The notes beneath the pieces are model-generated. The model searched no databases. It was given only the letters and a program-made list of their open reading frames with translations, and had not been told where the DNA came from. From positions 1 through 64,000 of the forward strand of contig LGRX02026025.1 of NCBI GenBank assembly GCA_001247695.2: a DNA stretch of 64,000 nt, written 5' to 3'. Origin of the DNA: Cymbomonas tetramitiformis. Taxonomy: Eukaryota > Chlorophyta > Pyramimonadophyceae > Pyramimonadales > Pyramimonadaceae. The translations under genes were made by a program, and so were the position numbers. Shown piece after piece: positions 4,759-45,637 of this stretch (position 1 is its first letter; each line of letters opens with the position of its first letter).

Positions 4759-4899
4759 AAAAAAGGGAGGTGGGAGGTGGGAGGTTGGCTTTTTTGAAAA
4801 GTATTTTAGAAATCACAAAAATATATTATATTATGTTATCTTCATTATAGAAAAGTTTTCAAAAACTAACACCTCCCACCACCCAACCTCCCTTTTTTA
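4759..4899 (-). repeat. Hairpin element 1 (3' end of methyltransferase gene)
   Basis: A ~140-bp inverted repeat has outer arms AAAAAAGGGAGGTGGGAGG and CCACCCAACCTCCCTTTTTT, and an inner A/T stem around TTTTGAAAAG / CTTTTCAAAA. Read on the minus strand it matches hairpin 2 closely, so both have the same orientation relative to the gene they follow. It lies between two convergent genes and touches the stop codon of the minus-strand methyltransferase gene. Confidence 0.8.
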
Positions 4900-5526
4900 A
4901 TCGAGTAATTCCATTATAAGACTATATGGTATTTCATATGCTTTCTCCCTATGTCTCACGCCGTATGAGACGTCTCGGGCCAGCGAACTACGTGACATCT
5001 GAGCGGTCGCAATGTGCTTTCCATATTTGCGTTTGTTTTCACAAAATGAAGATTGTTTATTACACATTTTCAGATTCAGATTCACTTTGTTCGTCCATAT
5101 ATTTGTCATTTTTCGATACGCAAATCCATATTTACAATAGCAACAGGTGTGTTTGTACTCCGTCATCGGTTGCATAAAGTCTCTATGTTGCAATAATCCC
5201 CCGTCACTTGGATTTTCGAGATACCAATGTGTGGGTTGAAAATAATCGATAATGTCCAATGTGCGTTTCACAATGGCATCGGCTAAATCCAAATCACGCT
5301 CACCCTTTCTATGAGCCTTCGAGTATTGGGTGCACGGTGGACTAGACCAAATGACATCGAAGTGTTTAGGTGCATAAGCGGTATAATCCCATTGTAATAT
5401 ATCACCGCTTATCGTCGGATTATACTTTGGCAATATGTCTAATGAAACAATCTCGCAATTAGGATGTTTGTCTCGAAACGCTTTTGACACGGAACAAGTT
5501 CCACTGAACAATTCCAATAATCTCAT
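4897..5526 (-). CDS. C5 cytosine DNA methyltransferase (virus-type, PCTQYS family)
   Basis: ATG at 5526 gives 209 residues; an upstream in-frame TTG at 5535 is less likely. Motif I is LELFSGTCSV (residues 4-13), the AdoMet-binding loop. Motif IV is SSPPCTQYS (61-69) with C65 as the nucleophile; the usual Gln after PC is Thr here. Motif VI is YLENP (102-106). The C-terminal third has a Cys cluster (TCCYCKYG about 127-134, then C155 and C162) that could bind zinc. C5 methyltransferases transfer a methyl group from AdoMet to cytosine in DNA. The enzyme is short, as in viral and phage members. It is transcribed divergently from the recombinase. A homologue with the same PCTQYS and IWTN signatures sits in a retrotransposon at 44564-45637. 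Confidence 0.85.
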   Translation of the reverse strand: MRLLELFSGTCSVSKAFRDKHPNCEIVSLDILPKYNPTISGDILQWDYTAYAPKHFDVIWSSPPCTQYSKAHRKGERDLDLADAIVKRTLDIIDYFQPTHWYLENPSDGGLLQHRDFMQPMTEYKHTCCYCKYGFAYRKMTNIWTNKVNLNLKMCNKQSSFCENKRKYGKHIATAQMSRSSLARDVSYGVRHREKAYEIPYSLIMELLD

Positions 5527-5602
5527 TGCTATCAATAAATATATTATTAATGCGTTTTATCCACTTAAAGACAATAGTCATTAATAGTATAAGATAACAA
5601 AA
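5527..5602. promoter_or_regulatory. Divergent promoter region
   Basis: These 76 bp separate the divergent methyltransferase and recombinase start codons. They are about 80% A+T, with TATA-like stretches on both strands (AATAAATATATTATTAATG; AATAGTATAAG). Both genes must be driven from here or from inside each other. No defined box can be assigned. Confidence 0.4.
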
Positions 5603-7039
5603 ATGCCCGAAATGTCCGAGAAAGAATTCCGCTTGAAAAATGACTACCCAAAGACCTACCCGCAAGACCTCAAGGAGAAGCTATATGAAATCGATGAAAA
5701 AAAGAGAGCCCAAATGAGAAAATATTATGACCGAACGAGTGAGGTGCAAAACAAACAAAAAATCATATTGAGAGCCAAAAACAATCCCGATTATTGTCCT
5801 CAAGAAGCGACATTGAGCAAATACGATTGGACCGATGCCGAAATAAAATTTCTAAGCCGTTGTGCTGAGGAGAAGAAATTGAAATATGCCGTGCCCAAGC
5901 CAAGACCTATTAGAGCTCAAGCCACCTCTCAAACCACAACCGATGCATCTACATCCGCTCGAGCCGCACCTACATCAATTGCATCGACCTCCGCTACGAC
6001 CAACACTACTACGGACCGGAGCACAAAAGACATTTTATCTAGAGATGAGATATTTGAAATCTTGGACGCTGAGGAAGGCATCGCCGAGGCCACTAAAAAG
6101 CAATGGAAGAATGTCGTCAACAATTTTGTAAAGGTGTTTAGTTTGCAAGCGAGCAAGTGGACTGAGGTGTACACGAAATACACAAACGAGGAAATCATTG
6201 AAATGTTGAACACCGCGTATACAAATGAAACCACTCGAATCAAACAAGTTCAACTTACGCCCAAATTGTATAATACGAAAAACTCAAGTCTGGTGAAAAT
6301 CATCGGTATAGAAAGATACAAGTTTTTTGACACTCGAGCAAAAGTTTTGCAACGAAGCATTCAATCGGGAAAGATTGGCAAGAAATTGAGTGATAAAACC
6401 GACTACGTTGACGATTTTATCAACGTCTTTAAGAATGAATTAGAATTGCGTAGAAAAAACCCAAGTTCGATGGACCATCTCATCGCGATGTTATATAGCA
6501 TCGGAATGTATTCGGACCAAGACTTGAATAAAGGCTCTCTTAGTTTCACTCCTCGTATCGACTATGACAACGTCAAACTTGTAAAAAGTGACAACGAAAT
6601 GACCGACCCCAATGGGAATTATTACAATTTCAATAACGGACATACACGAATTCACGACTTAAAAACGGGAAATAGCTTTAAAATCGATTATACAATGAAT
6701 CCATTAGTTCAAAAGTATATTAAAGAATCCATTAAGGACTTGAACAATCCACGAGAGTATCTTCTAGAAAACAATGCAAAGCCCCCAAGACCATTCACAT
6801 CTACATCGTTGGGCAAAAAAATGAATTCAATTATCGGTGTCGGTAATCAAACGTTTAGGAAAATGACGGAAAACATTTATTCCAAAATTTTCCAAGTCGA
6901 TATGATTCGGCTTTCGGAAATAGCGGCTCACGAACCAAATACGGCATATACTCAATACTTGAATAGCAAAGAATACACCGAGGCCGAGCGAAAAGCCGCC
7001 TTAGAAAAAATTCAAGCGCAATTAAATAAAAATAAATGA
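5603..7039 (+). CDS. Tyrosine recombinase / integrase-like protein
   Basis: ATG at 5603 to TGA at 7039, 478 residues. The N-terminus is basic, followed by a Thr/Ser/Ala linker (about 105-142). An alpha-helical core-binding-like part covers about 145-300. The C-terminal part follows the tyrosine-recombinase order: Arg in TPRIDYD (R318), a beta-hairpin Lys in HDLKTGNSFK (K354), a second Arg in NQTFRKM (R419), and His and Tyr in AAHEPNTAYTQY (H443; Y449 or Y452). The usual His of the HxxR box appears replaced. Such enzymes cut and rejoin DNA through a covalent 3'-phosphotyrosine and integrate mobile DNA. The context (capsid and methyltransferase genes, divergent promoter, 3' hairpin) fits the integrase of a virus-like element. 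The family call is by motif order only. Confidence 0.65.
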   Translation: MPEMSEKEFRLKNDYPKTYPQDLKEKLYEIDEKKRAQMRKYYDRTSEVQNKQKIILRAKNNPDYCPQEATLSKYDWTDAEIKFLSRCAEEKKLKYAVPKPRPIRAQATSQTTTDASTSARAAPTSIASTSATTNTTTDRSTKDILSRDEIFEILDAEEGIAEATKKQWKNVVNNFVKVFSLQASKWTEVYTKYTNEEIIEMLNTAYTNETTRIKQVQLTPKLYNTKNSSLVKIIGIERYKFFDTRAKVLQRSIQSGKIGKKLSDKTDYVDDFINVFKNELELRRKNPSSMDHLIAMLYSIGMYSDQDLNKGSLSFTPRIDYDNVKLVKSDNEMTDPNGNYYNFNNGHTRIHDLKTGNSFKIDYTMNPLVQKYIKESIKDLNNPREYLLENNAKPPRPFTSTSLGKKMNSIIGVGNQTFRKMTENIYSKIFQVDMIRLSEIAAHEPNTAYTQYLNSKEYTEAERKAALEKIQAQLNKNK

Positions 7040-7075
7040 ATTAAATCAAATTAAAAAGTAGAAAATCATTTTTTG

Positions 7076-7217
7076 AAAAAAGGGAGGTTGGGCGGTGGGA
7101 GGTCTTAGATTTTCAAAACTTTTTTATAATGAAAATGAAATATATTATATTATTTATTTGATTTCTAAAATACTTTTTAAAAAAGCCAACCTCCCACCTC
7201 CCACCTCCCTTTTTTTA
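7076..7217 (+). repeat. Hairpin element 2 (3' end of recombinase gene)
   Basis: An inverted repeat with arms AAAAAAGGGAGGTTGGGCGG and CCTCCCACCTCCCTTTTTTT starts 37 bp after the recombinase stop. The inner part is A/T-rich and can pair again. It is the reverse complement of hairpin 1 in arrangement and close in sequence to hairpin 3. The similarity to hairpin 3 continues ~60 bp beyond the arm (to 7277: TTAAGGCTGCGCCGTT against TTAAGGCCGCGCCGTT). Confidence 0.8.
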
Positions 7218-7484
7218 TTTTATTAAATGAAAAATACATATAAATATACTAATTTAAGGCTGCGCCGTTCCTATTAAAATAATAATTGAAATAGTCCCTC
7301 CGCTGCAAGCCGCAGAATTAAGCGCAGTTAATTTAAATAAAAAATGAATTAAATGAATTGAAAATAAGAATTAAACTAAAAATCCTCCCCCCCTGTTCTG
7401 CCCCCCATAAAATGATATATACCCGCGATACACCCCCGTCGATTAAAATGCACCTAGGACGCAGAGACGTTTTCGATTTATAAT

Positions 7485-7566
7485 CTGCGACGTTCGATTT
7501 AATCGACTGCAAAATATAATCGAGGGCGCGAGACATAAAGTGAAACTGAATATAATTTATATAATA
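7485..7566 (+). repeat. Direct repeat, copy 1 (82 bp)
   Basis: This stretch matches 8058-8139 with only a few differences. The shared core includes GATTTAATCGACTGCAAAAT and GGGCGCGAGACATAAAGTG. It lies in the gene-free part of the virus-like region. Confidence 0.8.
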
Positions 7567-8057
7567 GAAGCACACGATTTTAAATGATGACTAGGCGAAA
7601 CATACGAAAAGCGAAAATATATGATCGTGATTAGGCAATGACTCTGCACAATCTATAATTTAGCAAGCTGACGATGCAAAATATATAACTGAAAATGATG
7701 ACTCTGCAAGAAATAGAAGTCGGCATCGTGATTAGACAATAATAAAGCGATGCGATTGGATATCATATTTGAAAATTTGTGAGTAGGCAGTAAAAAGATG
7801 AAATCATTGGAGACATTATCTTTGATTATGTGACTCTGCTATGACTTTGCTATGACTCTGCAAAGTTTATCGCAAGCAATCGTAAATTAGCGCGGTTTCG
7901 TATCATTCGTTCGATTAAAAATTTCTGTCCAATCGTCATAAAGAATTTTCAATCGCGAAGCTGCTAATGTGATGTCATCGCCACGCGAAACTTCGCTGGA
8001 CTATGCAATGCTCGATTGGCAAGTGTTATTATTTTTGAGTTACAAACATTTCACAAT

Positions 8058-8139
8058 CTGAGACGTGCGATTTAATCGACTGCAAAATATAATCAAGGGC
8101 GCGAGACATAAAGTGAAACTGATTATAATTTATATAATA
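8058..8139 (+). repeat. Direct repeat, copy 2 (82 bp)
   Basis: Second copy of the 82-bp sequence at 7485-7566. The ~490 bp between the copies hold no ORF and many short A/T-rich repeats (for example several variants of TGACTCTGC around 7640-7860). Confidence 0.8.
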
Positions 8140-8210
8140 ATACTTCAGATGCACAGTCGATGCATAGACTCTATCGATATATAAATTATAATTTAGTTCA
8201 GACTATTAAG

Positions 8211-8360
8211 TGCCACATAGGAAGTGTCTAAGTTCAATCTACGTGGACAAAAGCCACATAGGACCTGCCTATGTGGTATCTACGTGGGAAAGAGCCACGT
8301 AGCACTTGCCTATGTGGTATCTACGTGGAAAAAAGCCACATTTGGCCTACCTATGTGGAT
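8211..8360 (+). repeat. Iterated short palindromes (CCACATAGG/CCTATGTGG)
   Basis: About three ~54-bp units, each containing GCCACATAGG..CCTATGTGG, which can form a small hairpin, linked by TATCTACGTGG. The arrangement resembles iterons or protein-binding arrays, but no function can be read from it. Confidence 0.7.
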
Positions 8361-9307
8361 TCCGATTTTTACCCGTTTTCAGACCGCCACGTTGCAATAA
8401 ATAATTATTAGCAAATCCATTCGCTCCACGAGTGACCCATCTCAGATTAAATTTCGATGAGAATAAAATCGGACTGTTAATTTTAATCTGACGGTCTTCG
8501 GTCGAAATTGTAAACTACATTACAAATTTAATAGGAATAATCCGGAACGGTCATCCGAAAACATTCCAATTGAAGTTGTAATGTATAAATTTTATATAGA
8601 TTTTTATAAATAAATTTTAGAAAAACCCGCATTGGTATTATTCCGTTTATCGGTATTATTCCGTTTTATATACAAAACAGAATCATTCCAAAGTCAAAAT
8701 ATAATTTATACTCAACGTTGTCGGCATTGCATATAAATGTACGTCAGATATGCAATATTTTTTTTAATGTAATATTTCGATCGTCGATGACTTATGACAA
8801 GATATGACAAGGGAATTTCAGGCTTGAAAGTTTTTTTCTGGAATATGACTAGTGAAATTTAGCCCCCAAAAGTTTTTCTTCAAAAAGTGATTTTCATTAT
8901 GTATATAAATATGTATCACGTACGCATATATATATATTTATTTTTATATTTTTTTTTTGGGGGGAGAATACAAAAATAATTAAACATTCATACACATAAA
9001 ATATCTCTACCTAGAGTTTTTTGGGGGGGATTTAAAAAATTTATCAAGACCCCCCACCCGCAAACCCCACACCCCCTAAAGGGGCAACCCGGTTAATGAA
9101 AACCGGATCTAAGACACGGGATTCTTCGCAATTTCAAATATCGATGACGGGGCGGTAGGACCCAATAATAATCTCGCGCACGCGCAAGGCCGTGCGTAAA
9201 ATGACGGTGAATATGCTGCCGTGCGTGGTCAAAACAAATCATTAGTGTGTGATTTACTTATCATTTACTTACATCTTCTTACATCTTCTTACTTTCCCAT
9301 TTTTCAT
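8361..9307. other. Gene-free A/T-rich stretch
   Basis: No ORF of note. It holds homopolymer runs, short direct repeats (TTATTCCGTTTAT twice near 8640-8665; TTACATCTTC twice near 9270) and G/C-rich islands near 9020-9110. It probably belongs to the virus-like element or is decayed insertion DNA. Confidence 0.6.
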
Positions 9308-9446
9308 AAAAAGGGAGGTTGGGCGGTGGGCGGTGCTACTTTTTGGAAAAGTTTTTCAAATGACAATAAAATGAAATGATATATTTATGTGAATTCTAAA
9401 ATACTTTTTGAAATTACCCAACCTCCACCTCCCACCTCCCTTTTTT
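9308..9446 (+). repeat. Hairpin element 3
   Basis: Third copy of the long inverted repeat, with arms AAAAAGGGAGGTTGGGCGG and CCTCCCACCTCCCTTTTTT. Similarity to hairpin 2 extends to about 9514. No intact gene precedes it, so it either marks a lost gene or moves independently. Confidence 0.8.
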
Positions 9447-9514
9447 AAATTTTATTAAATGAAAATATATAAATATAAATATAGTGATTTAAGGCCGCGC
9501 CGTTTCTTATAGCA

Positions 9515-14659: not shown

Positions 14660-15739
14660 TTAGATAAGAGCTTGCTCAGCATCTTCTGTCGTAGCACCAT
14701 CCAGCGCGAACTTGCCCATGCTGAAAGTGAACATGCCCATTCCAGTAGCCTCTCCACCCCGTAGCATCCTTGCTCGTGTCAAAGGGTTTCGAAACACCAT
14801 CACCCACATACATCTTCTTCCAATGGGCCCATGCTCCAGATGTCCAATCACATGCAAGCGTCCAACATGACACAGTTTGCGAAAGTAGCGCGCCCTGCTC
14901 TCAGTCATATCTGTCATGTAGTGCGATGGCACGTGGATGCAAGCCACTACTCTGCTGGCCAGCACTGCCAATGGCAATGCAATATCCAGTACAGCAAACC
15001 AAGGTGACGTTATTACTGCATCACATACTCCATACTTCTCCTTCCAAGCACGATAATTGCCCGGCTGTAGTGCATTGAGGGCCTCAGGCCATCCCAACTG
15101 CGGGTTCCAATCGTTGTTCATGATCTCCAAGTGAGGCCACTCCAGTGACATCACCTTGCCAATCACACCTGTACCAGCCCACGGGTCCCAGACCTGTGTG
15201 ATCTTCTTCCAGCTCACCTCGTGCGCTAGGCGCCTCACTTCCTGAGGAACCGTCATAACTAGCTCCAGGCCCCAATCCAGCTGACTGACAATCTTTACTT
15301 GGGCTCTGTTCAACTGAGTAACGTCCCCCCTCTTCTGCACCTCCTCCGGGCTCATGGCTTGCACTGTGGCGGCCTTACGTAAGCCTCTCGCGCGGGTGTG
15401 TTGTTCTGAACACTTTCGGCTCAGAATGGTGCGGTGACCGTCATGCCAATGCCCTGGCATCAAGTCTGTGATCACCCTGCTCAGTTCTTCCTGGCTTCCC
15501 CATGCCACTCGGTCTGGGAGATCCCCCATGGTCCCCTCTTTCCTGGCAATCTGTCGCGACGTGAGCGCCTGCCATGGATGCTCGCGGCCCAACCTCACTG
15601 CCCGGTGCGGGCCCACGTCAGCAGGCAACAATATCGTGTCCGCTCCCAGTTTCTCCTTCAGCAGCAGCTCCATGGCAGCCATTCTCTCCACGATGGATAC
15701 GCCCACCTTGGCGGAGGCTGCCACCATTGTCGCACCCAA
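14660..15739 (-). CDS. Amino-methyltransferase-like domain of retrotransposon polyprotein
   Basis: About 359 residues, in the same frame as the PHD finger upstream and separated from it by one TGA. The methyltransferase signatures are DPWAGTG (185-191; motif I, AdoMet binding) and TSPWF (244-248), a variant of the (D/N/S)PP(Y/F/W) catalytic motif of N6-adenine and N4-cytosine enzymes. They are followed by the hydrophobic block LDIALPLA. Positions between them (NNDWNP) fit motif II. The substrate base cannot be decided, and the second Pro of the catalytic motif is replaced by Trp, so activity is uncertain. The stop lies ~25 bp before the polypurine tract, making this the last domain of the element. 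Confidence 0.6.
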   Translation of the reverse strand: MGATMVAASAKVGVSIVERMAAMELLLKEKLGADTILLPADVGPHRAVRLGREHPWQALTSRQIARKEGTMGDLPDRVAWGSQEELSRVITDLMPGHWHDGHRTILSRKCSEQHTRARGLRKAATVQAMSPEEVQKRGDVTQLNRAQVKIVSQLDWGLELVMTVPQEVRRLAHEVSWKKITQVWDPWAGTGVIGKVMSLEWPHLEIMNNDWNPQLGWPEALNALQPGNYRAWKEKYGVCDAVITSPWFAVLDIALPLAVLASRVVACIHVPSHYMTDMTESRARYFRKLCHVGRLHVIGHLEHGPIGRRCMWVMVFRNPLTRARMLRGGEATGMGMFTFSMGKFALDGATTEDAEQALI

Positions 15740-16142
15740 GCATTTGGGGCACTGTCAGTCTCCTTCGGGCACTTTGTCCAGCGCTGGCTCCAGACACCAA
15801 ATGTGATAACCACGATTGCACGTGTCACATAACGGCATAGATGCCTCGCCATCCGTCCTCATGCACTTCTCACACGCAAGATGTTTGCTGGGAATGGCTG
15901 CGCTGCAGTCGTATTGGTCCTTCATCTGCAAGTGGCACGGCGCAATGCTTTGCACCGTGCTCTTTTCTCGAAGCTTGGTGCTGTCTTCCAACACCACCAC
16001 CCCGTCCTTCTGCACCTTGACCAACTTCAGAATGGCTGGCTTGGTGGCCACCTCCATGCCAGAGCGTGGTTGTTGTCGTATATATTAATACGAAGTCGCC
16101 CGCCTCGTGAACTGATGCGGCTTTGGCTCCGGTAGCTGCCAC
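15740..16142 (-). CDS. Integrase C-terminal barrel plus PHD finger, interrupted by TGA
   Basis: The protein first shows an integrase tail (GDFVLIY near 16080 in one frame; ILKLVKVQKDGVVVLEDS in the next; frameshift near 16070). A PHD finger follows: C62-x2-C65, then CDTC (77-80), YHIWC (H85, C88), and CPKC after the stop. This completes the C4HC3 zinc pattern. PHD fingers read histone H3 tails, so the domain could steer integration, as chromodomains do in other Ty3 elements. The TGA (15757-15755) stands exactly where the family has a conserved Trp (VPEGDW), so the stop is probably a TGG-to-TGA mutation. Confidence 0.75.
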
Positions 16143-19191: not shown

Positions 19192-19953
19192 CTAAAGGTC
19201 CAGCACTGTATCTCGACGCTCTAAATCCGCAGCAGATGCAGAATATTCGTGCAAGGAGGGCTTAAAGCTGGGCCAGTGTGCTAGCTCGCCCATGAGCTCA
19301 TCCCATCGGTGACGAGCCGCCCTCTTCCTGACTATATGGTACTCCTCCTTGGGGACTTCCACTGAGCCTCCGGCCTTTATCCACGCGAGACATAGCTCGT
19401 CCTCGTGTATGTCAGGGTACTTCTCCCGGAGTGTCTCTTGCTGGGTCACGTTGGCCATCATGGCGACCAGTCTCGTCGTGTCTGGCAGCCTAGGCAACCT
19501 CGTCTCTTTCTCCTTCGCCGCTGGTGCCCACTCGGGCGCTGAGTTCACTTCCACCGGTTTGTCCCCAGGCCTCGAAAAGGCTTGACGGTGCCGCGCCTTG
19601 TAACCCGCGACCTCCATGGAGGCGAGCTTCCATTGCCGGCGACGTGGAACTGCGTCCGTTGTGCCCAGTCCTTGCGTACCTTTCTGCCCCTGACTGCACA
19701 TGTGCTGCAGTCGCTGCTCCCAATCCCGGTGACTAAGGCGTCGGGCGACTTGTTGAGTGTAGTCGTTGGACCTGGTGACCCACTCCGCTAGCTGTGCTTG
19801 CACCGGCTCCGGTGCCAATTCTGAGGCGGTTGTTGCCTTAGTAGACCCCACAATGGGTATGGCAGCTAATGCGCCATGCTCCTCTTCCTCGCTTTCCTGG
19901 CTCTTCGGCAGCTTGGTCGTACTGACCTCCGCAACTGCGTACAGTAGCTCCAT
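19192..19953 (-). CDS. Unrecognised retroelement ORF after DNMT domain
   Basis: 253 residues ending with TAG at 19192. The first ~15 residues (AMELLYAVAEVS) look like the very C-terminus of the DNMT domain reached through a frameshift near 19985. The rest is charged and helical, with Trp-containing segments (AEWVTRSNDYTQQVARRL; HRWDELMGELAHW). No known motif. It is probably the tail of the RT-RNase H-DNMT polyprotein. Confidence 0.4.
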   Translation of the reverse strand: MELLYAVAEVSTTKLPKSQESEEEEHGALAAIPIVGSTKATTASELAPEPVQAQLAEWVTRSNDYTQQVARRLSHRDWEQRLQHMCSQGQKGTQGLGTTDAVPRRRQWKLASMEVAGYKARHRQAFSRPGDKPVEVNSAPEWAPAAKEKETRLPRLPDTTRLVAMMANVTQQETLREKYPDIHEDELCLAWIKAGGSVEVPKEEYHIVRKRAARHRWDELMGELAHWPSFKPSLHEYSASAADLERRDTVLDL

Positions 19954-20984
19954 AGCTCTGCGATCCGTGGCGAGGCCAAGTATCCCGGCCAGCTCTTCAG
20001 GTCACTCATGCCCTGAGTCATGCGCAACTCACTCGCGCTGTACCCCATGGCAATGGCCTTCTCGTCCAGGTTGACCTCTCTGGTCTCTCCTTCCTCCTTG
20101 ACGTCATCTCTCCTCACCACCGTACCTGCACGTGGGGCACGAAAGGCTCGGGAGTTCTGCGTCGCCAGGATGGTTGGCAGTACTCGCATGGGTTCTCCCA
20201 CCACGTTGGCGATGTAATGGGGCTTCCTGTCCCCAGTGACTACCTTGCGCGGCTTCCAGCCTCGTTGTAGGATGTCACTCACGTATATGTCTGGTGGCCT
20301 GTCCACCACCTCCATTACCAGGTTGAACTGGTAGTTCTGGAACAGGTTGCTCCAATATGCTCGTAGGCGATGCGCATATGATCCTGCGCGCGCTGCGTCA
20401 AAGGATACCGGCTGGCCCACCACACTGTTGATGATGGGGAACACCTCCTTCCTGATCTTCGTGTTCTGTCGGTGCGACAGTGGGGAGACATTCTCCAACA
20501 CATACGCCGGCGGTCGCTGAGGCTGCAGCTGTTGCAGCGTCGAAAGGATTCGCACTGCCTGGTAGAACAGCCTGCTGTGCTTGCCCTCCAGACCTGCCAG
20601 CTTGCCCGCTGGTGATAGGTCTTGACACGGGTAGCCACATACCATGACCCACCGGTCTCCACTCAGCGCTCCTGCATGAACGAGATCATCGAGGCTGGTG
20701 TCTTCGAGGTTGCTGGGCAGCTGTTCTAGGTGGACAGCCCCTGCGTGGAACAGGTCAGGATGTCGACGAGTGAGTGCCAGGCACCTTGCCCTTGCTACCG
20801 CCTGACTGGCCGCTGAGATGTCCTGGTAGAGGTACTTGTTGACCTTGACGCCGCAGCGCAAGAGCATCTCCAACCCAGCACACAGACCCCCACAGGGCTC
20901 GTAGCAAACCACGCCTTCTTCTCTAGCTTCCTGAAAGCAGCTCTTGTCGACCACCCTCGTGTCGATTTTCTTGGGTACCCTCAA
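19866..20984 (-). CDS. DNMT3-like C5 cytosine methyltransferase in retrotransposon
   Basis: A domain of ~370 residues with the ordered motifs of C5 methyltransferases. Motif I is EPCGGLCAGLEML (29-41). Motif IV is GYPCQDLSPAGKL (117-129), with C120 as nucleophile and the canonical PCQ. Motif VI is VLENV (162-166), and AHRLRAYWSNL (204-214) resembles the motif VIII block of DNMT3 enzymes. There is no ATG at its start; it follows the RNase H region and is reached through a frameshift near 20960. It would methylate cytosines, and DNMT-bearing retrotransposons are known from dinoflagellates and charophytes. The catalytic residues are intact although the surrounding frame is broken. Confidence 0.8.
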   Translation of the reverse strand: MRVPKKIDTRVVDKSCFQEAREEGVVCYEPCGGLCAGLEMLLRCGVKVNKYLYQDISAASQAVARARCLALTRRHPDLFHAGAVHLEQLPSNLEDTSLDDLVHAGALSGDRWVMVCGYPCQDLSPAGKLAGLEGKHSRLFYQAVRILSTLQQLQPQRPPAYVLENVSPLSHRQNTKIRKEVFPIINSVVGQPVSFDAARAGSYAHRLRAYWSNLFQNYQFNLVMEVVDRPPDIYVSDILQRGWKPRKVVTGDRKPHYIANVVGEPMRVLPTILATQNSRAFRAPRAGTVVRRDDVKEEGETREVNLDEKAIAMGYSASELRMTQGMSDLKSWPGYLASPRIAELWSYCTQLRRSVRPSCRRARKARKRSMAH

Positions 20985-21655
20985 CTTGCCCGCCTCCGTC
21001 CATGGTTTCGTCGCTGTAGACCGCTGGAGAGCCTCCAGAATTCATACTTCTGACTGGCTGTACCTGGCTGAGGGCATCCCATGCGACTCGCATCAATCTG
21101 CCAGAGCGTCTGGCCACCTCTGGGTGGTCAGTGTCAAACATGACGCCCCTGCTGCACTCCAACTCCTCCTGGTAGTGGACATCGAACAGTCGGTGGACCG
21201 CACTGGTCCCCAGCTGCTCCCTGACCATTTTCTCGCAGTAGTTGGCCACCTGGGCCTCTGGGTTCGCTTCTGGGCCAAGCGGTGGTTCCCTGGTCACCTC
21301 CAAGCAGATGGTGTCGGCGAAACAACGCGTACCTCTCTCAGCGTACCCTGCTTCTCGCGCACAGTCACCTTCTCGGTCCAGGCGGGCACCAGTCTCGTCT
21401 GCTGTGCTGGGCAGCGGGTACCTGGAAGGCACGTCAGCGTTCTCGTTCTTTGGCCCTGGTCGATACTGGACCGTGAACTCGAACTCTTGCAGACTGATGG
21501 CCCAGCGCAGGTGCTGACCTTGCAGGTCCCCTTCTCCATGAGAGTTGTGAGGTATGGTCAGTGACTAGCGTGAATGAAGTGCACACCATGCAGGTACTGG
21601 CGCAGGGTGCGGATTGCCCACACCACCGCCAGCATCTCACCCTGAAAGCTCGCAT
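20923..21655 (-). pseudogene. RNase H end and connecting region of pol
   Basis: Several short frames together show the end of a Ty3-type RNase H: HFTLVTDH near 21590, then frames carrying LRWAISLQEFEF- and YRPGPKNENADVPSRYP-like residues near 21430-21510. This is the standard 'L-EF-F-I-Y-PG--N--AD-LSR' close. A frame from 21432 to 20923 continues with 160 residues of no known family and runs into the DNMT domain through a shift. At least three frameshifts occur in 730 bp. Confidence 0.65.
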
Positions 21656-22836
21656 ACTGTCTCTCAGTTTTTGACAGTGAGCGGCTGATCACCATGCAGA
21701 TGTGCTCCACGCCCTGTTCGTCCTTCTGGCCCAGTACTGCGCCAATGCCATGGTTGCTACAGTCCGTGTAGAGGAAGATGGGCTTGCCATAGTCGATGGG
21801 CTTCAAACACCTCCCTGAGCAGAGAGCGTCCTTGAGTTTCTGGAACGCTTGGTCCTGGTCCTTCCCCCAAGCCTCCTTGACGTCCACCACTTCCTTTCTG
21901 AGCAGGTCGTTCAGTGGTCGAGCCATCTCTGAATAGTTGGGTCCCATGGGCTCATCCACCAAGCCCTTATAGTAGTTCATGAGTCCGAGAATGGAGCGCA
22001 CTCCAGTCTTGTCCTCGGGCTTGGGCAGCTCCTGAATGGCCTTGCACTTGATGTCTTGTGCGCCGATGGTGTTGTGACCGATGCGGTAGCCCAAGAAGTC
22101 CACGGTGGCTGCCCCGAAGGTTGACTTGCCTGAGTGCAGCCGGATCCCTGCATCCCCCAAGGTACGAAGCACGGCCTCCACATCCATGATGTGCTGCTCA
22201 GCGGTGTCTGAGTATATGCGCACGTCGTCAACGTACGCCACCGTGCAATGTTGCAGGTGACGCAGCTCGTAGTCCATGATCCTGATGAATGCGGCGGTTG
22301 CTCCAGCCGCTCCAAATGGCATGGAAGTGTAACGATAGAGCTGATTGCCCCACCAGAACGCTGTCTTGTCTCTGTCCTCTTCAGTGGTCATGGGAATCTG
22401 GTGGAAGGCTTTGATCGCGTCCAGAGTTGTCTTGAATTTGGCCTTGGCCACGCGCTGATAGAGCTCCTCTGGTCTGTGTGGCAGCGTGTTGTCCTTCAGC
22501 GACAACCGGTTCGTGTTCCAGAGGTCCACGCAGAAGCGGTGTAGAAGTCCACTGTCCAGTCTCATGGTCTTTCTTTCCTGCGACCACCACGTTACTGGCA
22601 TGTCGACAGTGCTGTGAGGCTGGCTCGATGAAGCCGTACTCCAATAGCTCTTTGCAGTGCAGGTCGATGATCTCCTGCTCTCCCGGGCTGTACTTCCTCG
22701 GTCGCTGGTAGGCCACCTTAGTCTCGTCCTTGAACGGGATGGCAAAGGTTGCATGCGCTGCCCCACCATGGTAGCCATTGATGTCCTGCGGCCTGTTGGC
22801 GAACCAATAGCTGCACCGCCTCACCACGTTGCGCAT
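21558..22836 (-). pseudogene. Ty3/gypsy-type reverse transcriptase-RNase H, frameshifted
   Basis: The N-terminal RT part is in one frame (RPRKYSPGEQEIIDLHCKEL and GFIEPASQ, near 22700-22620). The catalytic part follows in a second frame from about 22560. It holds TTLDAIKAFHQIPM (motif A Asp), FGAAGATAAFIRIMD, YVDDVRIYS (motif C, YVDD) and FLGYRI. The RNase H start is FLYTDCSNHGIGAVLGQ with its catalytic Asp, and SRSLSKTERQYASFQGEMLA. RT copies the element's RNA into DNA and RNase H removes the RNA. The frameshift lies near 22570, and another lies upstream near 22835. The copy is inactive as written. Confidence 0.88.
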
Positions 22837-23489
22837 CTCCTCCCAGTTCTCCTCGTGAACTCAGGGTGACCTCCAAAGGTGGCGTTGAGCTCAGTGTCCA
22901 ACCACGCAGCCTCGTCCTTGGTGACTCTGGTGGTCCCCCCCGGCTGTAGCGTGTCTAGCACCGTGTGCGGCAGCACCTCGTCTTGCTCTGCCACCATGGC
23001 TTCCCATCCAGTGTCCCACTGGCGCGAGGACCTCTGGTCGTCCCAAGCGGTTCTGGAGGAACTCTGCAGCGGGTCAGAGCACGAACCCGCAGCAGGTACA
23101 CCCTGAAACCCCCCAGGGGCCACGGCGGCTACCCAGGCGGCAGCCGCAAGCAGCAACAAAAGTTTTAAAATTCTGCTGGCTCCCGCAGGTTTGACTGGAG
23201 AGTGAAGGTTCAGTATGCATGTCAGCATCCTCCACCCCCCGTGCATACTGTACGGCCCAAGCCTCCTCCTGCAGAGACGTAGATTACCAGCGCCAAGACC
23301 AACGCCACGTAGATGAAATGGGCGACTCGGTAGCAAGCGACTGCGCGCTGTAGGCGCTGGAGTCGGGCTGCGAAGCGCGGCTTCTGCATGCGGCGTGGGA
23401 TGGCTGCCAGCGTAGCAGGTCCCGCAGCGGAGACTCGCTGCACCACCGCAAGTCGCATCGCATATATCGTTACACTTTTCTTTACGCAT
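22837..23489 (-). pseudogene. N-terminal region upstream of RT, with hydrophobic segment
   Basis: The frame of 23489-22821 contains a strong hydrophobic segment (ILKLLLLLAAAAWVAAVAP, near 23165-23110). An acidic part leads towards RT (ELNATFGGHPEFTR, then a frameshift). No protease DTG/DSG motif is seen. The part before about 23220 is probably not coding. The hydrophobic segment may be a membrane anchor or chance Leu/Ala-rich sequence. No 5' LTR is visible before the MITE at 23511. Confidence 0.35.
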
Positions 23490-23510
23490 ATTTCCGTTTA
23501 GATTTTATGT

Positions 23511-24026
23511 AGGAACGAACCTTACTTTTCGCTAAGTACTCTCTCTAAGTATTTTGAGACGTGTTCCCAAAGTGACCAAAAACCGTTCGATTCGGAATCG
23601 AACGGTTTTTTGTCACTTTGGGAACACATCTGATAATACTTAGAGAAAATACCGTACCCGTCTTTTCAAATGTTTTTGGAAGTCTTTTCTCCAAGTATTT
23701 TCTCTAGCCCGTGAATTTTCACAGCCGTGAATTTCAGATTCACGGCCGTGAATCGCGGCTGCGCTGCGGTCGGGAGGGCCTAAACCGTGCGGTGCATGGG
23801 GTTCGGGAGGGGCTAAACCGTACGTTAATGTGAGTATTGAAGTCGGCTTGGTGACAACACGCGCTATGGTCGACGACCTGTATGGTATTTTCTCTAAGTA
23901 TTATCAAACGTGTTCCCAAAGTGACAAAAAACCATTCGATTGGCAATCCAACGGTTTTTGGTCACTTTGGGAACACGTCTGATAACACTTAGAGAAAATA
24001 CTTAGAGAAAATCAAGGTTCGTTCCT
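23511..24026. mobile_element. Foldback MITE with two internal palindromes
   Basis: Ends are inverted: AGGAACGAACCTT at 23511 and AAGGTTCGTTCCT at 24026. Inside are two ~90-bp palindromes, 23555-23640 and 23900-23990. Both have arms GTGTTCCCAAAGTGAC.. and ..GTCACTTTGGGAACAC around a CCGTTCGATT core. Repeats of CTAAGTATTTTCTCT occur in both directions. There is no coding capacity. It looks like a non-autonomous DNA transposon. Confidence 0.75.
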
Positions 24027-24082
24027 TAATAAACCCTACAAGAAAATATCGATAAATCTAGTCTGCACCCGCAAATAAAAGA

Positions 24083-37848: not shown

Positions 37849-37886
37849 ACCGCCCTGTCGCCGGCGTCCCGCCGGCGGGAGGACGC

Positions 37887-38549: not shown

Positions 38550-38552
38550 TAA

Positions 38553-41084: not shown

Positions 41085-41091
41085 CTCGGAC

Positions 41092-42363
41092 TCAAAAGAT
41101 CACCTTATGCTCCGTAGCGATATCCGTAATCGGTGATGTCAGCGAGTCACCGGTCACCTTCTGCGTAAGCGTTGAGGTCAGCGAGTCACCGATCACCTTC
41201 TCCGTAAGCGGCGATGTCAGCGAGTGCCCAGAACATGCTATGCTTATGTGGCGTGGGCCACCTGTCAAGCCGGAGCCACCTGTCCTCCCCGCTGCCCCCA
41301 CCTCCCCGTTGCTTGTTGAGGAGGGAGTTGGATGCATTGAGTGTGCCATGGGTTCGCCAGCAATGCTTTGGTCCATGTCCTCTGACCTCCCCGCTGCCCC
41401 CACACCCCCTTGGTTAGGGCGCGGAGTCCAGGCGAGATTCGCACCCTGCTGCTGGCGCGTTCGCCAGTTGGCCACATCGGAGCGGGAGGGAAATTGGCGA
41501 AGTCCTTGTTTCTGCTCGTTCGCCTCATTCTGCATGTCCTGCTCACATGTTGGAAGTTTGACCTCTGCCATTTCGCGCACTGCTATCGGGTCGCGAGGTG
41601 GTCGGCCAGCAGAAGCTGCTCCAGCAGACTCACCCTGAAGCGCGTTCTCGCTGAAGGGCGTGGGCAGCTGGCCGTGCGGGGAGGTCATCACCGTAGCTCC
41701 AGACCAAGTGTGTGGAGTCCTGTAGGATGGCAAAGGACTTCGCTGTCTTGGAGCTGGAGGACTCATGTCGCGCGTCCGCGGTGGGCTCCTGCGGCGCGGC
41801 GGTGGCGGGGTCCGGTCTCGAGTCCGAGGCGGGCTTCGCTGGCGCGGAGGTGGAGGGCTCATGTCGCGGCTTCCAGGCAGTCGCAGAATGCCAGGGGAAG
41901 GGGTGGTCATCAGGTTGACATACCGCTGGGGAGTCGCCCTCATGTTCCGCCCTGCACCAGGGGTGTCAACGGTCAGCACCCGTGGTGACGCCGCTCTTGC
42001 AGGACGCAGGGGCGGATTAGGGCGCTGCTTAGGTACCGTTACAGCCTCCTCCATGGGAGGTGTCACACAAGCTGTTCCAGAAGCCAGAACCAGAGGAGTC
42101 GTGCTGTGGAACTCAGGGGCAGCAGCTGACAAGGTCGACTTCTTTTTGGGTATCTGGAAGCTTGGCTCACCTGCTGCTGTCGCAGCCTGCGGCGGCTGAC
42201 CCGGAGAGGGCGCCTTGTAGGTGCCCTTCGCCCCCTTGCCAGTGGCTCCAGTGGCTGCAGCGCCTCTCGTGCTGCGCTGACTGGCATGTCGTCCTCTCGT
42301 ACGCCTGGGAGTCGACGTAGGCGACGTTGGAGGTGAGCGCCCAGTGTTGGCGTTTTGCATCAT
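41092..42363 (-). pseudogene. Gag N-terminal region, RS-like repeats
   Basis: Starts at ATG 42363 (a second ATG follows directly). It is basic, rich in Pro, Arg and Ser. Three units of the type RQRSPPRTRDMSPPPP (near 41880-41740) resemble an RS domain or nucleic-acid-binding tail. The end has an 11-residue repeat (TGDSLTSPITD) encoded by a short tandem. It terminates in TGA at 41092 after a frameshift relative to the next segment. This is the likely start of the gag polyprotein of this element. Confidence 0.5.
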
Positions 42364-43576
42364 GTTGAAATTGAGTGTTGAAAAGTGGAAATCTGACCGT
42401 TGAGGAAGTCAAATCTGTCCAATTTGGGCAAATTCCCCCAGAACACTCAGAAAAACATTTCATCGTAGCAGTGGAAGTCGTTGTGAACAAAGAAATATGC
42501 TTTCCAGAGTGCAATGCTGTTTCTGGTGGTCAAATTTCAAAAATTGAGTGACAATCGGCAATTTGGGTAAATTCTTGGCGGCCATCCCGAAGCAATCCAG
42601 ACTAATTGGCCTGTTCTCAGTGTTGGAGACTATTTTTTTTCTTCAAAGAATATAAAAAAATAGAAAACTATTCTTCTGGGCTTCAGTTTCCTCCTATGTA
42701 GTCTGATGGGCTCAAATTTGTCGAATTTTGCTCTGTCGTGCCGGTTGGCCATCCCAATTTAAAATGTAGAGATCCGTGAGGACCCAGGTGTCGGGGCCAG
42801 GTTCCAAACGAAAAAAAACCATCAAGAAACGTCAGGAATTTTTTTGTCTACGTTAAAACTGTCTCCGAGGTCCTCTTTTCTCAATCTGGCCAATGGTCCA
42901 CTTTTCACTCTCGGTTCGGGTCAATCTGGTTGTCAATCCCGGTAAATTTGACTTGCTGGCGGCTTCTTTTCCCACTTTCTGACCAGTTTGTAGCATAACA
43001 GTTTTGGAAAAGCGACTGTCTGCATGCAGGGTGAAAGGCAGGGGGCAAAAAGGCGCAGAGCAATACCACTTCCAAGTGAAGCCTTCTTGAGCACTTGACT
43101 GTATCCGAGCCGGAGCTCAAGGGTCAGTCAGAGGTTAATTCTGCTTCAAATCTTGGGGCACAGGTCCGTTTTCGGCAATTTTGCAGTGTACAAAATTGCA
43201 ATGTTCTAGATAAACAGTTGAACAAGGCTACAATTCAAGCAATTGCAATATCTTTATGGCAGGAAAGATTGACCAGTAAATTAAAAGGTTGAGCAACAGC
43301 TCCTCCAAATAGTTACTTCAAGTTAGAACAGCCTCCAAATGGGCAGAATTCAAGTCTTATACTTTCAAGGCGCGCAGTTCATATCTCTAATCGATCTGTC
43401 CCATGTCGGCTGGCATATCATCATCTGCCACCTATACAAATCCTAATCAGAGAATCTGCATTTGGACAATCCTAATCAAGACAGTTGATTTCATTGTCCC
43501 TTGCTGGTCTTTGCCTTCTTCCTACGAGGAGTCAAGGTCATCACTGTCACTGCTGCATTTCAAATGAGTTATGTAC
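42364..43576. other. Gene-free stretch, possible LTR/leader region
   Basis: More A/T-rich than its surroundings and with no supported gene. It lies just upstream (minus strand) of the gag start, where leader and 5' LTR would be expected, but no repeat partner was found in the window. Confidence 0.45.
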
Positions 43577-44065
43577 TCAGCTCCAACAGGCAGGATATTT
43601 CCTGGGTTGCCTCTTCGTCTCTTCGGACACCCCAGCTGGTTCCTTCGATGGTACTTGAACAGTCTCCACCACAGAGGCTGGGGTATCCTCAGATATGGCC
43701 TCAGACTTCTGCTCGGTGATAGGCTGATCCTCTGGCTGAACGGGTGAGGTCGGGGAAGTGCCCTTTGGCACCCAGATAAGTTCACCCTTATCATCCATGA
43801 TCAACTGCAGTCCCAGTCTCTTCAACTTTCGAGCTTCAGCTTGTTCTTCAGCATCGTCAGCTACCAAGTCATCGAACTCGCTGACGTCATCCTCGGTGTC
43901 ATCATATTCAGGCGAGGCAGGATCCCATTTCGGACTGGCAGTATCCATGTCATGCTTACTGTCTGTGACACCCGCGTCATCCTTGTCATCCGAATCGGGT
44001 AGCTTCTCCTTACTGTCTGTGACACTCGCGTCATCATGGTCATCCGAATCTGGTAGCTTCTCCAA
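43577..44065 (-). CDS. Hypothetical acidic repeat protein
   Basis: 162 residues, very acidic. Two copies of a ~19-residue repeat (EKLPDSDDKDDAGVTDSK) are followed by a Glu/Asp-rich stretch and a small hydrophobic patch (GLQLIMDDKGELIWVPKG). It lies on the minus strand between the methyltransferase of one retroelement and the gag start of another. It could be a C-terminal extension of the retroelement polyprotein. No known domain. Confidence 0.35.
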   Translation of the reverse strand: MEKLPDSDDHDDASVTDSKEKLPDSDDKDDAGVTDSKHDMDTASPKWDPASPEYDDTEDDVSEFDDLVADDAEEQAEARKLKRLGLQLIMDDKGELIWVPKGTSPTSPVQPEDQPITEQKSEAISEDTPASVVETVQVPSKEPAGVSEETKRQPRKYPACWS

Positions 44066-44180
44066 GTTGTCGGGTGTGGTGCCAGCCTCAGATGCAGTTG
44101 CTCGGTTTCATGCAGCCATTGCAGACTACAGCCCATCGTCCAAGGCAACTTCACTACGTTTTTTCGAACATCGTGTTAGC

Positions 44181-44681
44181 ATGGCCGCCAACCAAGCCTT
44201 GCACCATGTCGATGTCCTTAAGCGTATCAACTTCGGAGGTGGTGGTGGTGCTGCTGATGGAATGGCCTTGGTGAGTAAGGGTGATAGAGGTAGAGGCAAG
44301 ACAGCAAATAAAAGGAAATTGGACAAGGTGGACTCCGCTAAACTTCAGAAGAATAACAGAAAGCGCAAGACACTGAAGACAACTGGAAGATATAAAACCG
44401 TCGCGGAACTGAAAGACCAAGAACTGGCCGAGGCGGCCTCGAGCCAGAAATCGGAAGAGTCGCACGTGGAAAACAATGTTCATGTCGTCAATCAACTCAG
44501 GGGGGAGCGGCAGGTGAAGAACACCAAAACAGGTGGGGTGGTTGCGTCCTACTACACGCAATATCAGACTGGCGTCTGTGAATGGGCGACCACCGATGAG
44601 CTGCTGGCATACAATACGTGCGTAGACTTTCTTCCTCGTTCCTCGATAGGGTTGTATGCCCCATCGGGAAATAACCGCTGA
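44181..44681 (+). CDS. Hypothetical basic protein, antisense to retroelement 3' end
   Basis: ATG 44181 to TGA 44681, 166 residues. The first part has a poly-Gly run. The middle is very basic (KTANKRKLDKVDSAKLQKNN; RKRKTLKTTGRYKTV), like a nuclear protein. A putative acceptor (TTGCAG) lies upstream at 44136. The last ~40 codons overlap, on the other strand, the end of the methyltransferase frame and are doubtful. It may be a terminal exon or a chance frame. Confidence 0.25.
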   Translation: MAANQALHHVDVLKRINFGGGGGAADGMALVSKGDRGRGKTANKRKLDKVDSAKLQKNNRKRKTLKTTGRYKTVAELKDQELAEAASSQKSEESHVENNVHVVNQLRGERQVKNTKTGGVVASYYTQYQTGVCEWATTDELLAYNTCVDFLPRSSIGLYAPSGNNR

Positions 44682-45637
44682 AATAAAGTTCTCAGTAACT
44701 TAGCAGGTATAGGATATACTGCGCGAGATTTCTGCATCCCCTGCTGATCTGGATGAGGTCCTAGTTGAGCGGTAAGGGGGTGCACTCCAGTTGCCCATTT
44801 ACATGGACACGGAGTCTGCGAGGTACATTCCCGCAGTGGTACGCTGGGCGGCGCATTAGTCCAAATACAAGTAGGTTTCTTATACTTCTCCCCGTACATA
44901 CAATATGAACAAGACAGGGGGGTAGGTAATTGATCCACTGCCGGTCTGAATCGCAAAGCATAGGGATATCGCCCTTTTGGATTTTCCAGAAACCAATAGC
45001 GCGGTCTGAGATATTCGATGATATCAAGGGTGCGTTCTACACAAGCATCTGCAGATATTAAATCTGGTGGTCCTCCAGTAGTTCGCGCTTGACTATATTG
45101 GGTACACGGTGGACTCGCCCATATTACATCAAAATATCCAGGAGGGTAATAGCTCAAATATTCCCAATCTTCAATTCTGGTGACATGCGTAGATCGCCAG
45201 AACTTATCAGAATCTAAAGATACTGTCTGTGCCTGAGGGAAGCATTCTGAGAAGGTTCTTTGAACTGAGCCAGTGCCACTGAAGAGCACCAGTATTCTGA
45301 TAGGTTTTTCTGAAATTGGTGATAACTCAGTCACATACGCCACTTCTCCAGAATCGGTAAAGTGTTGTTTTTCCCATGGAAGACACGCACTTGCAGAGCT
45401 GTTAGACATACCCCAGAATTGCGCTGATAATTGCTGCACCAAGGTCCCTCTGCCCGCTGTCATCATCAACGCAGCATCCTGATGTCGTCGATGTTCGCTT
45501 CTCCGCGCAGCTGAATCTCTGACCTGCTGCTCCATTGCTAGGCGTCTCTCTTCAAAATCCCGCAACTGTTGTAATGGGGTACCGCGCTCTAACTTATCAC
45601 GCGTTCTCCACTGATCATGGGCTTTAGAGAACCCGGT
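44564..45637 (-). CDS. C5 cytosine methyltransferase fused behind integrase-chromodomain
   Basis: The sequence is in frame with the integrase upstream, separated only by a TGA (45640-45638). The first residues complete a chromodomain (after the TGA: TGF..DQW, then LRDFEERR). The methyltransferase follows, residues numbered from the codon at 45565: motif I ILVLFSGTGSV (91-101), motif IV WASPPCTQYSQA (149-160; C154 nucleophile), motif VI FLENP (192-196), then CSYCMYG and CIWTN. The PCTQYS form, the RTLDII-Y--P block and the IWTN block are shared with the virus-like enzyme at 4897-5526, showing they are one family. It ends with an extra tail to TGA at 44564. Catalytic residues are intact. Confidence 0.85.
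   Translation of the reverse strand, partial: TGFSKAHDQWRTRDKLERGTPLQQLRDFEERRLAMEQQVRDSAARRSEHRRHQDAALMMTAGRGTLVQQLSAQFWGMSNSSASACLPWEKQHFTDSGEVAYVTELSPISEKPIRILVLFSGTGSVQRTFSECFPQAQTVSLDSDKFWRSTHVTRIEDWEYLSYYPPGYFDVIWASPPCTQYSQARTTGGPPDLISADACVERTLDIIEYLRPRYWFLENPKGRYPYALRFRPAVDQLPTPLSCSYCMYGEKYKKPTCIWTNAPPSVPLRECTSQTPCPCKWATGVHPLTAQLGPHPDQQGMQKSRAVYPIPAKLLRTLFQRLFPDGAYNPIEERGRKSTHVLYASSSSVVAHSQTPV

Follow-up and report, generated by a model that had tools for sequence, protein, structure and literature searches.

A compact C5-cytosine methyltransferase family found as a free gene in polinton-like elements and as a Pol fusion in chromoviruses of Cymbomonas tetramitiformis

Analysis of a window of 64,000 nucleotides of Cymbomonas tetramitiformis DNA (the whole stretch considered here) revealed homologous C5-cytosine methyltransferase (MTase) domains of approximately 210 amino acids in two kinds of mobile element, a putative polinton-like DNA element and a Ty3/gypsy chromovirus. 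This suggests that a retrotransposon acquired a DNA-modification enzyme of viral type. Probably, both enzymes belong to one viral-type family whose gene was captured by a chromovirus ancestor and fused to the end of Pol; we infer the direction of this move, from virus to retroelement, and every function of the two enzymes. The features concerned are the following:

4897..5526, minus strand: free-standing C5-cytosine methyltransferase (P0001), an ATG-to-stop gene of 209 amino acids
44564..45637, minus strand: chromodomain end, linker and C5 methyltransferase (P0002), a frame of 357 amino acids
44666-45301, minus strand: MTase core of P0002 (profile match, residues 113-324)
45638..45640, minus strand: in-frame TGA inside the chromodomain (from reading the frame)
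45641..46744, minus strand: integrase core, Tf2-1-type SH3 and chromodomain start, in the same frame as the MTase (PF24626, 1.4e-8, above the cut-off; PF00665, 9.3e-7, just below it)
44666..46735, minus strand: stretch covered by the window's chromovirus fragment (blastn against genomic copy C7, 95.7% over 2070 bp)
19866..21041, minus strand: third C5 methyltransferase, DNMT3-like (PF00145, 2.7e-11)

The first-pass annotation had given the right coordinates for both enzymes, although both genes read on the minus strand, and had listed motifs common to them (LFSGT-SV, PPCTQYS, RTLDII and LENP among others), all of which are present in the BLASTP alignment. In this single pairwise comparison 86 of 214 residues were identical (40%, 134 bits), and the E value of 3e-42 rules out chance resemblance. 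The Thr after PPC, initially regarded as unusual, turned out to be the rule of the family: among 231 proteins, comprising the two queries and the best matches listed, 209 have PPCTxxS (PPCTEYS in 117 and PPCTQYS in 60), 12 have another residue at this position and 10 lack the motif. In C5 MTases the usual form is PCQ. G-T-S, S-P-P-C and E-N-P, corresponding to the SAM site, the PPC catalytic loop and the ENP motif, are invariant in a 30-row alignment (A1). P0001 matched PF00145 (3.4e-5) and phrog_757 (2.2e-13). By these motifs both proteins are predicted to be C5-cytosine methyltransferases, with the fold modelled for P0001.

The third enzyme belongs to a separate family. It lies behind an RT-RNaseH frame (21558-22820), and 27 of its 30 matches among PDB sequences were DNMT3A/B/C (best 1.5e-5). 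P0002, by its profile matches (phrog_757, 5.2e-14; PF00145 below the cut-off), is probably not of the Dnmt3 type.

Phylogenetic trees joined P0001 and P0002 in one family. In a 126-row tree, rooted on a phage record of our choice and built after dropping 6 of 92 rows shorter than 150 amino acids, both fell in an 80-row clade (100/97), in which 35 retro-type rows (93/84; 32-row core, 97/92) were sister to 45 polinton-type rows (91/96). The 4 phage records, without exception, fell outside (99/97), as did 11 of the 15 viral-contig rows. In a 101-row tree, for which P0119 was chosen as root and six long or distant rows and all phage and IMG/VR rows were dropped, 20 chromodomain rows fell within a 34-row clade (99/94), and the three Cymbomonas free-gene types within a 45-row group (90/79). 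Convergence, or an origin in two separate well-supported families, which the first-pass annotation had named as grounds for abandoning its proposal, is therefore ruled out by the BLASTP comparison and both trees. The retroelement branch nests inside viral sequences at the family level, insofar as the free-standing rows count as viral; because these come mostly from metagenome contigs, we infer their viral status.

The trees also bear on who gave the gene to whom. That this alga's own polinton-like lineage was the donor would fit the high copy number of both enzyme types in one genome and a published chromovirus-type insert within a polinton-like virus of Cymbomonas (PMC10675990), and an approximately unbiased (AU) test that forced a direct polinton-retro link disfavoured this topology without rejecting it (p = 0.086). 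However, in the unconstrained trees the retro group belongs neither to the 14-row polinton group nor to the 45-row group as a whole, the two enzymes are only 40% identical, and the chromovirus MTases span divergent lineages, so we consider this donor unlikely. Two or more independent captures by chromoviruses are possible, if doubtful: in both trees the fused enzymes are split by seven free-standing ones (the P0150 group), which nest among them and may reflect either two captures or a move in the opposite direction, but a single clade of 25 retro-type rows was not rejected (AU test, p = 0.284). A further AU test restricted to the 18 rows that are surely fused (p = 4.9e-11) was set aside as badly posed because truncated copies from the same clade had been omitted. 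The AU tests separate neither single from double capture nor direct from indirect donor. A flow from retroelements to viruses is quite improbable; the P0150 group, free genes among fused ones, could be such a case, but across the family it is the fused state that is nested, with free phage and viral-contig proteins outside under the chosen root.

Structural comparison added a viral match. The AF2 model of P0001 (pLDDT 90.4) gave 211 matches in the PDB at E <= 0.001, headed by M.HaeIII and followed by DNMTs (TM approximately 0.5-0.6 by query). In a library of viral structures its best match was a putative cytosine methyltransferase of Tetraselmis virus 1 (A0A2P0VN45, 218 amino acids; TM 0.89, 39% identity), which we take to be a giant virus infecting a green alga. 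This protein, compared by structure and outside the trees, resembles P0001 in fold along its whole length; it is a free gene of the virus, whereas P0002 is the tail of a retroelement polyprotein. No near relatives were found in IMG/VR: scans with P0001, A1, A2, A4, A5 and the capsid ORF returned distant loci (25-39% identity, the range seen against P0001) or none, with the best 80 of 591 kept in one scan. TMED stands for a Mediterranean marine survey. A bacterial origin was considered and rejected: three strict peptide patterns, which miss distant family members, matched 51 stretches in GTDB and gave 8 loci in 84,980 species genomes; each of these 8 lies in a MAG, and one (L261) is a chromovirus contig. 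L262, another of these loci and a possible mobile element, contains a DUF5906 frame with a VapE-like match below the cut-off. Altogether, trees and structure support a viral-type origin, but not the polinton-like lineage of this alga as donor. Of the transfer proposed by the first-pass annotation between a DNA-virus lineage and Ty3 elements, what stands is a single family in which retroelement enzymes nest among otherwise free-standing ones, with phages outside; the window's polinton-like lineage is an unlikely source.

The chromovirus enzyme had been described as fused behind integrase and chromodomain. The frame is indeed shared, and many other copies are open through it, but the window copy is split by the TGA. 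Comparison with the full-length copy C7 revealed no LTRs on the window fragment. At least 114 retro-type copies were scored in the genome (at 93-100%), 12 of which keep an open frame of 2325-2434 amino acids through the MTase. In C7 the pol frame of 2423 amino acids reads protease-RT-RNaseH-Dam-integrase-SH3-chromodomain-MTase, its LTRs are 98.96% identical over 481 bp, and AGATT, a 5-bp duplication, is present on both flanks (seen in this copy only). C7 is thus a Ty3/gypsy chromovirus in its PR-RT-RNaseH-integrase order, C-terminal chromodomain, LTRs and short target duplication, and at least one chromovirus copy with the MTase has 99% identical LTRs. The Dam domain (PF05869, 6.4e-8) has EPSF in place of NPPY, the usual Dam motif, and is therefore probably inactive in C7, whereas the MTase domain keeps its PPC, ENP and SAM-site motifs.

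The same combination of integrase, chromodomain and MTase was found in several divergent lineages (L261, P0157 and P0143). L261 reads RNaseH-Dam(NPPY)-integrase-SH3-chromodomain-MTase in a single frame, and the Dam-integrase-chromodomain-MTase order that it has in common with the Cymbomonas element points to one capture and argues against several. In P0128, the integrase-chromodomain part falls outside the group holding P0129 (90/86), yet its MTase pairs with that of P0129 (99/98); this apparent domain swap may be an assembly chimera.

On the polinton side, at least 150 free-gene copies were scored, 37 at 88-100% and 113 at 61-69%, and several of those read at locus level sit in polinton-like elements. 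At locus L250 on contig C15878, approximately 1.1-1.2 kb separate a fragment of a chromovirus from one of a polinton-type MTase, an arrangement that would also fit the polinton-like lineage as donor. Around P0001 the window contains:

2825..3259, plus strand: element gene family 2, 144 amino acids in the window and 351 in copies L248 and L249 (ORF clustering across copies)
3294..4712, plus strand: element gene family 4, putative capsid, 472 amino acids
4759..4898, no strand: arm of a 140-bp inverted repeat (partner 7076-7215, 88%)
5603..7039, plus strand: element gene family 1, putative tyrosine recombinase (by eye), 478 amino acids
9308-9447, no strand: repeat partner of 4758-4897 (81%)

The putative capsid gene occurs near the MTase in all 4 other type-1 loci read (L247, L248, L249 and L256), at full length in L248 and L249. 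It had one homologue at 87% but no Pfam match above the cut-off and no informative sequence match to a double jelly-roll major capsid protein (best PDB sequence match, E 1.3), and its AF2 model reached a pLDDT of only 26. The putative recombinase is present in 3 of these 4 loci (L248, L249 and L256), L247 being the exception, as well as in L251 and L252; it had neither a Pfam match above the cut-off nor a PHROG match. For family 2, the window frame had no Pfam match and the 351-residue copy had one, far below the cut-off. Packaging ATPase and DNA polymerase were not found within the window stretch of the element. One ATPase-like family is common to L248, L249 and L251-L255 (AAA_7 above the cut-off in L254 only; Pox_A32 below it in L252) and adjoins the MTase in all 3 of the 65%-type loci read. 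L254, on contig C1 (418,321 bp), also encodes a type-B DNA polymerase (PF03175, 1.8e-21) and an N6/N4 MTase.

Both enzymes look to be under purifying selection, judging from dN/dS values of 0.11-0.27: 0.12-0.27 in 5 of 7 pairs of the free MTase, the other 2 being saturated, and 0.11-0.20 in 3 comparisons of the retro MTase, with 0.10 for the retro integrase. The loss of NPPY in the adjacent Dam domain of the copy read would suit an MTase carried as a passenger, or kept as a non-catalytic DNA-binding remnant, but this is very unlikely given the retained motifs, the long frames kept through the MTase in 12 of 114 copies, and a dN/dS of the MTase domain (0.11) close to that of the integrase part. 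The DNA itself gave no sign of CpG marking, since C/T differences were not raised at CpG, either among polinton-type copies (0.021 versus 0.034; other strand, 0.032 versus 0.033; 200 mutually non-independent pairs) or in one retro pair with strands pooled (14/202 at CpG and 54/818 at other sites).

We propose the following scenario for capture from a viral-type source. The compact MTase occurs as a free gene in algal DNA viruses, in polinton-like elements and, going by the structural match, in one or more giant viruses; phages carry more distant forms. The chromodomain-bearing Ty3 lineage would have taken up such a gene in an ancestral element, which also bore a phage-type Dam domain ahead of its integrase, and joined it to the C-terminal end of Pol. 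In polinton-like elements, the enzyme may methylate cytosines in the DNA of the element that encodes it, either as a mark or as a shield against host nucleases or those of a giant virus infecting the same cell. In chromoviruses, the chromodomain could direct the integrase-MTase protein to chromatin. Its MTase tail would there methylate the new copy and its flanks, allowing quiet residence in heterochromatin; alternatively, the copy DNA might be modified prior to integration. A broader reading, which we put forward tentatively as a real possibility, is that algal chromoviruses hold a two-enzyme kit derived from viruses or phages (Dam ahead of the integrase and C5 MTase behind the chromodomain), and that the C5 gene travelled in both directions between retroelements and DNA viruses in shared host nuclei, with the P0150 group as a reversion to the free state.

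Cytosine methyltransferases within retrotransposons have precedents. KnitGypsy-Dnmt3 has one in the Pol of a Gypsy element (Ka/Ks < 0.2), and SymbioDIRS-Dnmt3 and SymbioLINE-Dnmt carry theirs in frame (de Mendoza et al. 2018, PMC5890265). The Dnmt3-type enzymes among them cluster with eukaryotic Dnmt3 and were traced to such genes, a yet unsequenced virus being only suggested as a possible source (PMC5890265). Searches of an open-access library gave no account of a viral-type MTase in a chromovirus, which is a weak negative. Like KnitGypsy-Dnmt3, the Cymbomonas chromovirus has its MTase inside a retrotransposon reading frame; unlike it, the enzyme is of a compact viral/phage type, stands behind a chromodomain and is accompanied by a Dam domain (PMC5890265). 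According to PMC6338049, DIRS elements also have DAM domains, and DAM/DCM domains occur in Ty3/Gypsy as well as DIRS clades, likewise as adenine or cytosine methyltransferase domains of retrotransposon polyproteins; the Cymbomonas polyprotein differs in that a single Ty3 chromovirus, equipped with a DDE integrase, LTRs and a 5-bp duplication, has both domains. The polinton-like viruses PLVA and PLVB of Cymbomonas are high-copy and integrated, and are described as encoding pPolB or TVpol-SH3 together with Yrec or a transposase; the main text of that description never uses 'methyl' (PMC10675990). The window-type elements are similarly high-copy, and contig C1 fits the published 418-kb scaffold with a PLVB insert (PMC10675990). 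Here a single genome contains one enzyme family in hundreds of copies, free in polinton-like elements and fused in chromoviruses, so that one alga allows tests both of how genes pass between DNA viruses and retroelements and of what mobile elements gain from DNA methylation.

Two related C5-cytosine methyltransferases (MTases) are encoded in the window, as the first-pass annotation had correctly observed:

4897-5526, minus strand: free-standing C5 MTase, P0001 (209 aa)
44564-45637, minus strand: retroelement-fused MTase frame, P0002 (357 aa, MTase at residues 113-324)

Sequence alignment gave 40% identity across 214 aa, indicating that the link between these proteins is real. Both had phrog_757 (DNA methyltransferase) as their best PHROG match (2.2e-13 for P0001 and 5.2e-14 for P0002), and the Pfam family PF00145 was found above cut-off in P0001 (3.4e-5) and below cut-off in P0002. 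The P0001 structure model (pLDDT 90.4) resembled M.HaeIII and DNMT structures, and in the viral structure library it best matched a putative cytosine methyltransferase from Tetraselmis virus 1 (TM 0.89, 39% identity). The Thr after PPC, taken at first as unusual, is a family mark and no private link between P0001 and P0002 because PPCTxxS occurs in 209 of the 231 proteins compared (the pair and their best listed hits).

To place both genes in the host genome, copies were scored in the 851.7-Mb assembly (25,745 contigs), in which the window is bases 1-64000 of C17135; counts are lower bounds, as only the best candidates were scored. The free MTase had at least 150 copies, 37 at 88-100% identity and 113 at 61-69%, and we examined ten free-gene loci: type 1 (L247, L248, L249 and L256, joined by the window), type 2 (L251 and L252; 68%), type 3 (L253, L254 and L255; 65%), and L250. 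In type 1 outside the window, family 2 (an element gene) and family 4 (putative capsid) were close to the MTase in all 4 loci and family 1 (putative tyrosine recombinase) in 3, with L248 the sole locus where the MTase and families 1 (478 aa), 2 (351 aa) and 4 (472 aa) are all full length. Type 1 and type 2 have family 1 and the ATPase-like family 3 in common, and L251 also has family 2. Pfam, PHROG and PDB sequence searches gave no support for the putative capsid (3294-4712) or recombinase (5603-7039) of the window, and the capsid structure model was meaningless (pLDDT 26).

In type 3, the MTase adjoins family 3, a type-B DNA polymerase is close to it (PF03175 1.8e-21 in L254), and an N6/N4 methyltransferase is oriented oppositely to it (PF01555 7e-25 in L254). 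Judged by sequence, this N6/N4 and C5 pair is a predicted two-enzyme modification module of the polinton-like element. The two genes stand head to head in L254 (3725-4537, minus strand, and 4489-5112, plus strand) with overlapping starts, and the same pair was recognized by ORF family in L253 and L255. Because the 418,321-base contig carrying L254 resembles the 418-kb Cymbomonas scaffold on which, according to PMC10675990, a giant virus carrying a PLVB insert is integrated, the L254 element is probably that insert. At L250 (1907-5396) in the host genome, a chromovirus fragment with its MTase lies some 1.1-1.2 kb from a fragment of a polinton-type MTase.

P0002 had at least 114 scored genome copies at 93-100% identity, the window copy counted; in 12 of the 114 the frame stays open for 2325-2434 aa, and in 9 a stop interrupts the matched part. 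The single full-length chromovirus copy examined, on contig C7, was read in several pieces. Its LTRs match at 98.96% across 481 bp, and AGATT flanks it on either side. Its 2423-aa pol frame encodes an aspartic protease, RT, RNase H, Dam, integrase zinc finger and core, SH3, chromodomain and a terminal C5 MTase; the Dam domain scores above the PF05869 cut-off (6.4e-8), the MTase below that of PF00145. Upstream, a 1304-aa frame reaches the end of piece L258; we take it to be gag from its position, and its 248-aa continuation in piece L257 had no Pfam match. The window chromovirus is a 2070-bp piece of a C7-like element (95.7% identity) with a TGA inside the chromodomain.

A related single frame, running from RNase H through Dam, integrase, SH3 and chromodomain to a C5 MTase, was found on L261, a 13,451-base contig binned in a Verrucomicrobiaceae MAG (TMED86), which is a misbinned chromovirus of some eukaryote; its Dam scores 27.5 bits, slightly under the cut-off of 28.1. 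The Dam motif is altered in the C7 copy (CEPSF) and intact in L261 (CNPPY). This phage-type Dam (PF05869, phrog_111) lies between RNase H and integrase, at residues 1420-1507 of the L257 protein and 256-314 of the L261 protein. A profile search found integrase/chromodomain-type N-termini in the homologous proteins P0124, P0126-P0135, P0141-P0144, P0146, P0147, P0157 and others of the clade, nine of these proteins being seeds of the profile itself.

To analyze the origin of the enzymes, a 382-row FastTree was reduced to a 126-row IQ-TREE rooted on a phage record (the 86 of 92 wider-clade rows that reach 150 aa, and 40 chosen others). An 80-row clade (100/97) comprised 35 retro-type rows (93/84), 32 of them forming a core (97/92), and 45 polinton-type rows (91/96). 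The next larger clade (99/97) still left out each of the 4 phage records and 11 of the 15 viral-contig rows. Another tree, of 101 rows, which included L261 and genome copies but no phage or IMG/VR rows, concurred: 84 rows (100/98) comprised 38 retro-type (95/86), 45 polinton-type (90/79) and one more. Here a 34-row clade (99/94) took in the 20 chromodomain rows, the 45-row group contained all three free-gene types of Cymbomonas, and L261 paired with P0141 (100/92). The P0150 group of seven free-standing proteins (99/98) was nested among chromodomain rows. AU tests rejected none of three constraints on the fine branching order: 25 retro-type rows as one clade (p = 0.284), polinton-14 with retro-32 (p = 0.086) and polinton-45 with free-7 (p = 0.205). 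Integrase-chromodomain and MTase trees (19 rows) were mostly concordant within Cymbomonas-like types, P0128 excepted, with deep branches too long for comparison. The integrase-chromodomain part of P0128 lies outside the group of P0129, yet its MTase pairs with P0129; this MTase may have been swapped, by domain exchange between chromovirus lineages or as an assembly chimera. An old origin of the P0001-P0002 link is more likely than a recent transfer within this genome, and a viral-type donor for the retroelement MTase, as first suggested, is the best reading at the family level.

Nei-Gojobori dN/dS for the free MTase was 0.12-0.27 in 5 of 7 pairs (window versus L249, 0.17), the other 2 being saturated. 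The retro MTase domain gave 0.11 (window versus C7) and 0.12 (part of L250 versus C7), the retro chromodomain end plus MTase 0.20, and the integrase part 0.10. Because these values are low, both enzymes seem to be maintained. The MTase would modify the DNA of its own element, either protecting it or, behind a chromodomain, marking the new insertion site. C/T differences at CpG did not rise in 200 polinton-type copy pairs (0.021 versus 0.034; other strand, 0.032 versus 0.033), and one retro pair showed no overall excess at CpG versus other sites (top strand, 11/105 versus 28/464; other strand, 3/97 versus 26/354). This missing excess argues against these copies being strongly marked at CpG.

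The window also contains a third C5 MTase (19866-21041, minus strand), unrelated to P0001 and P0002 and DNMT3-like by its best PDB sequence match (1.5e-5), behind an RT-RNaseH frame (21558-22820, minus strand). Integrase was not found in six frames neighbouring them; 182-bp inverted repeats lie nearby (23481-23662 and 23875-24056). A 364-aa ORF (14660-15754, minus strand) with DPWAGTG and ITSPWF motifs is N6-type methyltransferase-like by eye, although no Pfam family reached its cut-off. The stretch 47367-50930, in which two overlapping ORFs lie between identical 127-bp direct repeats (47367-47493 and 50804-50930), is probably a young non-autonomous LTR element.

In the open-access literature searched we found no report, a weak negative, of a chromodomain-trailing viral-type C5 enzyme and Dam in one polyprotein. 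PMC6338049 records Dam domains in DIRS elements and states DAM/DCM for Ty3/Gypsy and DIRS clades, and a figure in PMC10120064, of integrated virophage and polinton-like elements, has a 'DNA methyltransferase' gene label. An amoeba genome received a DNMT related to that of a giant virus, according to PMC12344493. In PMC5890265, Dnmt3 enzymes are carried by retroelements in Symbiodinium and Klebsormidium, one in a Gypsy Pol, and the authors mention that they might have come from a virus not yet sequenced. The third MTase and RT-RNaseH of the window may be alike in layout to the published KnitGypsy-Dnmt3.
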